This document shows, piece after piece, positions 42,549 through 45,178 of a DNA stretch of 64,000 nt (position 1 is its first letter; each line of letters begins with the position of its first letter). The notes under the pieces were generated by a model. The model did not search any database. It saw only the letters and a program-made list of their open reading frames with translations, and was not told the origin of the DNA. The stretch is from Roseobacter sp. (GTDB lineage: Bacteria > Pseudomonadota > Alphaproteobacteria > Rhodobacterales > Rhodobacteraceae), in assembly GCA_015665415.1 (NCBI GenBank), contig JADFAE010000007.1:310001-374000 (forward strand). Reading direction: 5' to 3'. Made by a program: the position numbers and the translations under genes.

Positions 42549-42722
42549 GTAAGGTGCCGCCTCTTGGGGTGGAGAATTGGGAAGCCGGTGTGAGCCCGGC
42601 ACTGCCCCCGCAACGGTAACATCGGGTTAGGACGCAGCATCCGCCACTGGGAAGAGGACCCCGGGAAGGCGCTGCAACCGGTCATCTGGCCCTCGGTGAC
42701 AGTCCGGAAACCAGCCTTGCTG
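42549..42722 (+). ncRNA. Cobalamin riboswitch
   Basis: The element contains the ordered conserved pieces of the AdoCbl-type cobalamin aptamer: GGTGCC (42553), GGGAAGCCGGTG then GCCCCCGCAACGGTAA (about 42589-42618), GCCACTG (42643), GGGAAGGCG (42663) and the B12 box AGTCCGGAAACCAGCC (42701-42716). After it GTCAAAC (42727-42733) can pair with GTTTGAC (42788-42794), a possible expression-platform stem. Such riboswitches shut down expression when cobalamin binds. It is on the same strand as, and upstream of, the gbcA/gbcB-like genes, with no cobalamin gene nearby. Confidence 0.93.
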
Positions 42723-42857
42723 AAACGTCAAACCGCGGGTGGCGGTGGGGGCAATGGAAACCAAGCTGCCTGTCCTCCTGCGGCGCAGTTTGACCGCTGT
42801 CCTCATGCCCTCTGCTTCAGTCAGGCCGCCGGCGCGCGGTATGTGAGAGCCAGTCGA

Positions 42858-44090
42858 ATGAACACGAGCAAAATCAACAATCTACTGGCGCGACGCCAGC
42901 CGGGGTATTCTCTGGAACAGGGGTTTTATACGGATCCTGACCTATATCAGCTGGATCTGGAGATGATCCACTATCGCGAATGGCTCTTTGCCATTCCCGC
43001 CTGCGAGCTGGAAAAACCAGGCAGCTATGTCACCCATCAGGTGGGTGCCTATGGCGTGGTGCTGGTGCGCGGTGCAGACAATCAGATCCGGGCTTTTCAC
43101 AACAGCTGCCGCCATCGTGGCTCAGTGCTGTGCACCGCCAAGAAAGGCAATAACCCGAAACTGGTCTGCCCCTATCACCAGTGGACCTATGAGCTCGACG
43201 GGTCGCTGTTGTGGGCGCGCGACATGGGGCCTGATTTTGATCCCAAACACCACGGGCTAAAGCCGGTCCACTGCCGGGAACTTGCCGGTCTGGTCTATAT
43301 CTGTCTGGCCGAGGATGCGCCGGATTTCGACAGCTTTGCCGATCTCGCCCACCCCTATCTGGCGGCTCATGATCTGGGCAATGCCAAGGTGGCGCATGAG
43401 AGCACCATCATCGAGAAGGGCAACTGGAAGCTGGTCTGGGAGAACAACCGTGAATGCTATCACTGCGGCGGCAACCATCCGGCGCTGTGCCGGTCCTTCC
43501 CCGATGATCCCAGCGTCACCGGCATCGGCGAAGGCGGCGAGACCCCAGCCCATCTGCAGGTGCATTTTGACCGCTGCCAAGGCGCGGGCCTGCCTTCGCA
43601 ATTCCATCTCAGCACCGATGGCCAGTACCGGCTGGCGCGGATGCCTCTGAAGGCGGGTGCCAAAAGCTACACCATGGATGGCAAAGTGGCTGTGAACCGC
43701 TGGTTGGGGCGGGTGCCCTTTGACGATACCGGGGCGCTGATGAAATTCCACTACCCGACCACCTGGAACCACTTCCTGCCGGATCATGCGCTGGTGTTCC
43801 GGGTCACGCCGATCAGCCCGACTGAGACCGAGGTCTGCACCAAGTGGCTGGTCCACAAGGATGCCGTTGAGGGGCGCGACTATGACCTGCAGCGCCTGAC
43901 CGAAGTCTGGACTGCCACCAATGAAGAGGATCGCCGGGTTGTCGAAGACAACCAGCAAGGCATCAACTCGCCTGCCTATGGTCCCGGGCCCTATTCCGCA
44001 TTGCAGGAAAGCGGCGTCATCCAGTTCTCCGACTGGTACTGCGAAACGCTGGCCGCCCGGCTGGCTCCTCAGACCCAGGCCGCGGAGTGA
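42858..44090 (+). CDS. Rieske oxygenase, glycine betaine monooxygenase alpha-type (GbcA-like)
   Basis: A 410-residue oxygenase subunit. The Rieske 2Fe-2S ligands are Cys84/His86 and Cys104/His107 (CRHRG and CPYHQW). The mononuclear iron site includes His202 and His207 ([15 protein letters not shown]). Length and partner fit GbcA, which hydroxylates a methyl of glycine betaine to release formaldehyde and dimethylglycine. Related enzymes act on stachydrine or carnitine, so substrate is inferred. The cobalamin riboswitch lies upstream. The start codon's ribosome site (GAGAG) is weak. The B gene start follows 5 bases after. Confidence 0.85.
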
Positions 44091-44095
44091 GCACG

Positions 44096-45178
44096 ATGAA
44101 GGACCTCGAAACCCAATCTCGTACAATTTGGTCTGACAGCGAGATGCTGGAATGTGTCTCGGTGGTGCCAGAGATGCCACAAACCGCCAGCTTTTCCTTT
44201 CGGGCCCCTTCGGGGGCGCTGTTTGACTATCAGCCCGGGCAGTTCCTGACGCTGGAGATCCCGGCACCGGATCAGCCCGGCGGCGTGGTTCATCGCACCT
44301 ATACGATCTCCTCTTCGCCGTCGCGGCCCCGTTCGATCACCGTGACCGCCAAGGCGCAATCCGACAGTATCGGCACCCGCTGGATGCTGGACAATCTGCA
44401 ACCGGGCATGCGCATCAAGGCGCTGGGGCCTGCGGGGCTGTTCACCAATGCGGGCAGCACCGCCAAAAAGTTCCTGTTTATCTCCGCCGGGTCCGGCATC
44501 ACCCCGATGATGTCGATGACCACCTGCATGTGGGACGAGGGCCAGGATCTGGATGCGGTCTTTATCAACTGCGCCAAACGCCCCTCTGAGATCATCTTTC
44601 GCCAGCGCCTTGAGCATATGGCCAGCCGGATGCCGGGGCTGGATCTCAAATTTGTGGTGGAAGAGCCGGATCTCTACCGCCCCTGGAGCGGCTATCAAGG
44701 GGTGTTCAATCAGCTGATGCTGGGTCTGATGGCCCCGGATTATCTGGAGCGCGAGGTCTATTGCTGCGGGCCAGAGCCCTTCATGCAGGCGGTGCGGGAT
44801 GCGTTGGCGGGCCTTGGCTTTGACATGGAGAACTACCATCAGGAAAGCTTTGGCGCGCCGGTCGAGACAGAGGCGGATCAGCCGGATCTGGATGATGTGG
44901 TTCTGGATGATGACAGCCATGCTGAGATCACCTTTGACCTCTCTGGTGTCACTGCAAAATGCGCTGAAACCGATACGGTTCTGGCGGCGGCGCGGGCCTC
45001 GGGGCTCAATATCCCCTCAGGCTGCACCTTTGGTGTCTGCGGCACCTGCAAGGTGAAAAAGACCCAAGGTGAGGTGCATATGGTGCACAATGGCGGCATC
45101 TCGGAGGATGATATCGAGGCAGGCTATATCCTCGCCTGTTGTTCGCATCCCATCGGAAAACTGGCGGTCGAAGTCTGA
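44096..45178 (+). CDS. Rieske oxygenase reductase, GbcB-like
   Basis: A 360-residue electron donor for the oxygenase. An FAD-binding ferredoxin-reductase domain (HRTYTISSSP at about 66-75) is followed by an NAD(P)-binding domain (ISAGSGITPMMSM) and a C-terminal plant-type 2Fe-2S ferredoxin domain with SGCTFGVCGTCK and a last cysteine in ILACC. GGAG 8 bases ahead supports ATG 44096; a GTG at 44087 overlaps the upstream stop. The order of oxygenase then reductase is the usual gbcAB order. Confidence 0.88.
   Translation: MKDLETQSRTIWSDSEMLECVSVVPEMPQTASFSFRAPSGALFDYQPGQFLTLEIPAPDQPGGVVHRTYTISSSPSRPRSITVTAKAQSDSIGTRWMLDNLQPGMRIKALGPAGLFTNAGSTAKKFLFISAGSGITPMMSMTTCMWDEGQDLDAVFINCAKRPSEIIFRQRLEHMASRMPGLDLKFVVEEPDLYRPWSGYQGVFNQLMLGLMAPDYLEREVYCCGPEPFMQAVRDALAGLGFDMENYHQESFGAPVETEADQPDLDDVVLDDDSHAEITFDLSGVTAKCAETDTVLAAARASGLNIPSGCTFGVCGTCKVKKTQGEVHMVHNGGISEDDIEAGYILACCSHPIGKLAVEV

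Follow-up and report, generated by a model that had tools for sequence, protein, structure and literature searches.

What does a cobalamin riboswitch control when the genes behind it encode a two-component Rieske oxygenase? The question is raised by a 64-kb stretch of a Roseobacter sp. genome (the window, meaning the whole of the DNA analyzed here). The sequence-only reading of this DNA had placed a cobalamin aptamer with a B12 box at 42549–42722 and had named an Infernal run with RF00174 as the way to check it. Over the whole window cmscan returned a single match at the gathering threshold, and this match was RF00174 at 42535..42733 on the forward strand, with 105.1 bits against a cut-off of 31.5 and an E-value of 2.9e-25. 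It spans the full model (positions 1–189), core and B12 box included, as expected of a genuine family member. The cobalamin aptamer upstream of the oxygenase gene is thus confirmed as real; the element stands as it was read, except that its start had been placed 14 nt too late. The source genome (4.47 Mb) carries six RF00174 elements in all, including the one in the window. CobG lies 3' of one of the other five, and the genes around these five, named by eye, include cobW, cobN, and genes for cobalt transport, corrin synthesis and ABC-type uptake. One source-genome riboswitch precedes a 194-aa ORF (L050, 10779–11363, reverse strand) that matches nothing in Pfam or NCBIfam at the thresholds applied.

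The gene downstream of the aptamer starts at ATG 42858, runs to 44090 on the forward strand, and encodes a 410-aa Rieske oxygenase alpha subunit (PF00355, PF00848) of the Stc2/GbcA-like quaternary-amine demethylases, group Vb. A GbcB/Stc4-like reductase with FAD, NAD and 2Fe-2S domains (PF00970, PF00175, PF00111) follows on the same strand at 44087..45178, its gene overlapping the oxygenase stop. The two had earlier been labelled gbcA-like and gbcB-like. A Rieske oxygenase with its reductase they are, but the gbcA label is inexact. The oxygenase scores 497.3 bits against the GbcA model NF058607 of NCBIfam, below the curated cut-off of 670, and the reductase scores 354.9 bits against the GbcB model NF058606, below the cut-off of 500. 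Of the 32 survey genomes that carry such homologues, not one attains the GbcA cut-off, which is reached in 13 of 299 genomes of the phylum. The 13 proteins above it are 45–48% identical to the window oxygenase and form a separate clade in a tree drawn without support values. Score and tree together rule out a GbcA equivalog.

The window oxygenase is 67% identical to the stachydrine demethylase Stc2. Its closest solved structures are 3n0q (E 7e-231) and Stc2 itself (3vca, E 1e-196). The first is identical to a protein of Ruegeria sp. TM1040, is labelled merely as a putative dioxygenase, and shares 76% identity with the window oxygenase. Group Vb enzymes have been described as carrying an Asn at the position of an aromatic residue in CntA, a Cys pair and a bridging Glu (PMC7948474, PMC10952381). 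All of these are present along with the Rieske and catalytic domains, and N197, E199, C200, H202, C203 and H207 are invariant among the compared oxygenases; by our reading of the motif, the Asn would match CntA Tyr203. These features identify the window protein, at the level of sequence, as a group Vb betaine demethylase that groups with Stc2. Since it sides with Stc2 and is not a GbcA equivalog, the candidate substrates are glycine betaine, proline betaine and related compounds.

About 125 nt separate the end of the aptamer from the oxygenase gene. Directly 3' of the aptamer lies a hairpin, ACCGC-GGGYG-GCGGU (42732..42746, forward strand), which is almost invariant in an alignment of 16 sequences (97.5% of cells paired). 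Three of its five pairs never vary and no double changes occur in the 16 sequences, so it has no covariation support. It sits where cobalamin riboswitches have their P13 kissing-loop hairpin. A second conserved hairpin (42825..42840, forward strand) adjoins the ribosome-binding region of the oxygenase, with 93.8% of cells paired and likewise no double changes or covariation among the 16 sequences. This second hairpin is the probable expression platform. The free fold of the leader is no better than that of shuffled sequences and is not unusual. Because the fold resembles shuffles and the helices lack covariation, we dropped folding as proof of a platform and claim only its position and conservation. 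Translational repression by bound cobalamin is the usual mode of such riboswitches.

The earlier reading had also suggested comparing upstream regions in relatives, and this comparison finds the same arrangement in several alphaproteobacterial lineages. We scanned the best 80 homologous loci of named genomes with RF00174, and 24 of them have a match immediately 5' of the oxygenase. These loci hold 30 RF00174 matches, 24 of which end 89–214 nt before the oxygenase match on the same strand (one of the 24, in L131, is a partial match of 32 bits). About 0.5 matches would be expected by chance in the 290-nt slot (computed with 29 matches), and the conservation of the pairing therefore excludes chance. 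The 24 switched loci come from many roseobacters, two Roseibium, Hoeflea alexandrii, Gemmobacter caeruleus, Fuscibacter oryzae, Rhodobacter ruber, Rhizobium leucaenae and a Rhodospirillaceae genome. A family survey covered 149 genomes, and 120 of these had a match at E 0.001, among the listed ones mostly partial Rieske-domain matches. Among the matches listed, 32 survey genomes had a homologue reaching 42% identity or more, and these genomes were scanned whole; RF00174 stands just upstream of the oxygenase in 12 and is absent from that position in 20. Forty loci were fetched besides the window. Eight of them fall below 42% identity and were left out of the trees and genome counts; a motif screen found no riboswitch motif upstream of the oxygenase in these eight. 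A loosened motif search gave many false matches and was replaced by the Rfam scans. RF00174 also precedes the oxygenase in Ruegeria sp. TM1040, Tritonibacter scottomollicae and Phaeobacter gallaeciensis DSM 26640, and has no match at an stc2 locus of Sinorhizobium meliloti. On the protein tree, given here without support values, the switch appears in three main clades and its distribution takes at least 12 state changes.

MttB-type corrinoid genes had been named as something to look for in the same genome, and they are there: the source genome (G000) has six MttB-family genes and one MtgC-like gene, a candidate counterpart of the kind expected for a B12-independent isozyme. It has no second, MetH-type match at E 1e-20 beside the MtgC-like gene. 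MttB-family genes occur in 34/34 genomes with switched copies versus 46/69 with unswitched copies only (by sample, 12/12 and 22/22 versus 16/20 and 30/49). An MtgC-like protein, defined as at least 70% identical to the L127 protein with E below 1e-70 (a query that scores below the cut-offs of the NCBIfam MtgC models), occurs in 33/34 switched versus 45/69 unswitched genomes. The sole switched genome lacking it is an 84% complete assembly. A weaker MetH-type match at E 1e-20 was found in 10/34 switched genomes. Fisher tests, whose rows are related genomes, give p values of 3e-5 for MttB and 2e-4 for the MtgC-like protein. A tree-corrected pairs test counted 9 independent switch changes. In about 3 of them MttB changed along with the switch and in about 6 it did not differ; none went against the switch (median p 0.25, not significant). 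The association of MttB with the switch is consistent in direction and modest in strength. It is clearest in one subclade, in which MttB occurs in 9/9 switched versus 3/10 unswitched genomes. As 46 of the 69 unswitched genomes also have MttB genes, the corrinoid route can do without the switch. For the genome counts, L120, L136, L137, L140, L156, L186 and L189 were dropped as survey duplicates, L178 was dropped as a second copy (L127 record), L169 was excluded, and L017 (second copy, G091) was not counted separately. The tree test left out L017, L178, L169 and two PDB proteins.

Switched and unswitched copies also differ in their neighbors. Within flanks of about 4 kb at the 80 named loci, a LysR gene of one cluster accompanies 23/56 unswitched versus 0/24 switched copies, and an OYE-type flavoenzyme accompanies 19/56 versus 0/24. 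The two Roseibium loci, L127 and L128, have the switched oxygenase divergent from a gene group. On L127 this group matches DUF1638, a methyltetrahydrofolate methyltransferase domain and a betaine-type corrinoid protein, the last of which scores 207.6 bits against the MtgC model, below its cut-off of 370. Glycine betaine demethylation in Ruegeria pomeroyi has been tied to corrinoid, pterin-binding and DUF1638 proteins (Mausz et al., 2025; PMC12478193).

The Pelagimonas locus L122 has a second riboswitch (3350–3550, reverse strand), divergent from the oxygenase switch, that precedes cobalt-uptake-like genes (460–3256, reverse strand; CbiM-like by eye). Class Ib ribonucleotide reductase is a known B12-alternative. 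Its genes adjoin 3/24 switched (L118, L122, L130) versus 4/56 unswitched named loci, and also switched copies L011 and L025 of the survey. They are not specific to switched copies, and we rejected them as special neighbors, a result that takes slightly from the stand-in reading proposed below and adds slightly to its precursor-supply rival. Three Paracoccus loci (L181, L184, L196) have the oxygenase divergent to class Ib ribonucleotide reductase genes on its left, with no RF00174 match between the two; other control may operate there. Near the oxygenase of Paracoccus sp. MKU1 (L183), an RF01989 SECIS_3 match of 80.4 bits lies at 7059–7117 on the forward strand, and the unswitched oxygenase match of L028/L189 reads with one in-frame TGA.

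Taken at the level of genes and their arrangement, the oxygenase-reductase pair is probably a B12-independent substitute, repressed by B12, for the demethylation of betaines by the corrinoid route of MttB/MtgB, MtgC and MtgD. With cobalamin plentiful, the riboswitch would keep the pair off, and cobalamin binding would lower translation by way of the second hairpin, next to the ribosome-binding region. At low B12 the oxygenase would be made and would remove an N-methyl group from glycine betaine or a related betaine as formaldehyde, instead of transferring the methyl via MtgC. This would amount to the metH/metE logic transferred to osmolyte demethylation. Formaldehyde is expected because such release is the chemistry of the group, and GbcAB has been reported to release it (PMC12478193). 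A gene for S-formylglutathione hydrolase FghA (formaldehyde detoxification) lies at 39408..40439 on the reverse strand, about 2.4 kb from the oxygenase (TIGR02821, 421.7 bits, cut-off 281.7), and might be functionally linked to it. Partial support for the regulatory reading comes from the presence and conserved position of the aptamer, from the enzyme family, from the co-occurrence of MttB and MtgC-like genes, and from some neighborhood links. The B12-regulated betaine oxygenase proposed from the sequence thus survives in its aptamer, in the pairing across several lineages and in the corrinoid genes of the genome, and gives way on the identity with GbcA. The switched copy of P. gallaeciensis, outside the 80-locus count, has an annotated LysR gene adjoining it and counts against this explanation.

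The main rival on substrate keeps the same regulation and so overlaps with this explanation. It takes the oxygenase for a proline-betaine (stachydrine) demethylase, not a glycine betaine demethylase, that backs up a corrinoid enzyme for proline betaine. The 67% identity to Stc2 suggests as much, as does a source-genome locus (L054, 6776–13232, forward strand) where an OYE-type flavoenzyme, an ORF that looks ProC-like by eye and another large ORF stand behind an MttB-family gene, and which could be a corrinoid proline-betaine route; OYE-type genes also neighbor unswitched copies. The clade that holds Stc2 is unswitched and has LysR/OYE neighbors. Two genomes carry both copy types, Roseibium aquae (switched L127, unswitched L178) and G091 (switched L023, unswitched L017), and their unswitched copies have LysR or OYE neighbors, which suggests different jobs for the two types. 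One residue points the same way. Ala223 of Stc2 has been reported as a ligand contact (PMC10952381); the corresponding residue is Thr221 in the window oxygenase and Thr in 29/34 switched proteins and in 9/13 proteins above the GbcA cut-off, whereas in the 44 LysR/OYE-type copies it is most commonly Ala (20) and Thr in 6. We consider a stachydrine demethylase possible, if somewhat unlikely.

The main rival on purpose is precursor supply. It holds that at low B12 the demethylation of betaine yields glycine for 5-aminolevulinate as well as C1 or methyl groups for new corrin, so that the oxygenase is no isozyme at all. A review reports that betaine and choline stimulate the formation of the ALA precursor and raise industrial B12 production (PMC8123684), and the source genome has genes for B12 synthesis (CobG confirmed; cobW and cobN by eye). 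Precursor supply leaves the association of the switch with MttB and MtgC-like genes unexplained, an association that is itself not significant after tree correction. It also sits badly with six Paracoccus genomes of the subclade described above, which have neither an MttB nor an MtgC-like gene and keep the oxygenase unswitched while carrying cobalamin riboswitches elsewhere. On this balance we regard it as improbable. Far less credible still is that the riboswitch serves a leader peptide or that the oxygenase replaces CobG in the corrin pathway: a 30-codon ORF does start at 42754 between aptamer and oxygenase, but it is not conserved, its start codon being unseen in the aligned relatives, and the genome does have CobG (TIGR02435, 243.0 bits, cut-off 234.8). 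We rejected both.

Two survey genomes show an arrangement of another kind. In G092 (L011) a split MetH (11069–14849) stands behind its own riboswitch (10331–10532) with a 100-codon ORF between, and in G118 (L030, 1964–5820) a split MetH lies directly downstream of the switched oxygenase pair. Split MetH is itself B12-dependent. The arrangement runs opposite to the usual isozyme logic and fits neither the stand-in reading nor precursor supply neatly. G118 also has, not far from its switched pair (L030, 4–1083, reverse strand), a cobalamin riboswitch followed by a glutaredoxin-like gene and then a core-MetE-like ORF (PRK06520).

Returning to the oxygenase as a B12-repressed stand-in, a further step can be ventured. 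A cobalamin-dependent glycine betaine route has been demonstrated in R. pomeroyi (Mausz et al., 2025; PMC12478193), where demethylation depends on a cobalamin-binding protein common to methionine synthesis. Because MtgC would be common to methionine synthesis in this way, a switched oxygenase would spare that synthesis by relieving MtgC of its betaine load. Cobalamin status would then pick the chemistry, with methyl transfer through MtgC at ample B12 and formaldehyde release at scarcity. We offer this tentatively, at rather less than even confidence. If it is true, the marine B12 supply sets the form, methyl-folate or formaldehyde, in which C1 metabolism receives the methyl groups of betaine.

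As an osmolyte, glycine betaine is abundant in the sea. If B12 represses the oxygenase, B12 availability would redirect betaine carbon and nitrogen, and genomes carrying both demethylation systems would be explained. The switch at the TM1040 gene suggests a role for the solved structure 3n0q, and the named strains carrying the switch, Ruegeria sp. TM1040 and P. gallaeciensis DSM 26640, are open to testing. The remark that the regulatory link seemed undescribed has held so far. We found no description of a link between a riboswitch and a betaine oxygenase in the full-text literature, in a search that fell short of most subscription papers and regulon databases. The nearest paper (PMC12478193), in its available text, does not mention a gbcAB-riboswitch link, and the word riboswitch occurs in it a single time, in the reference list.

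How does the locus compare with known systems? Cobalamin regulons have been listed as including isozymes of B12-dependent enzymes as a category (PMC3766115), and metE repression has been compared with metH function (PMC9600662). The window resembles the metE type in having the same aptamer family before a B12-free enzyme whose job a B12 enzyme may do. It differs in its target, here an O2-dependent demethylase of betaines set against a corrinoid methyltransferase route. A riboswitched B12-independent isozyme is thus a known kind, and the oxygenase/corrinoid pair is new as far as we have seen. The Stc2/Stc4 system of S. meliloti shares the conserved Rieske and catalytic residues and the oxygenase-reductase order, along with its close identity to the window oxygenase; it differs at the one ligand-contact residue (Ala223, here Thr221), and the S. 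meliloti locus examined (oxygenase 394/409 identical to Stc2) has a divergent LysR gene in place of any RF00174 match. GbcAB of Pseudomonas and Chromohalobacter shares the group Vb reaction type and the two-component layout, but the proteins above the GbcA cut-off form their own clade and the window protein stays below it. MtgBCD and the split methionine synthase of R. pomeroyi (PMC12478193) are cobalamin-dependent enzymes unrelated to the oxygenase pair, and are its proposed functional counterpart, with MttB-family and MtgC-like genes present in the source genome.
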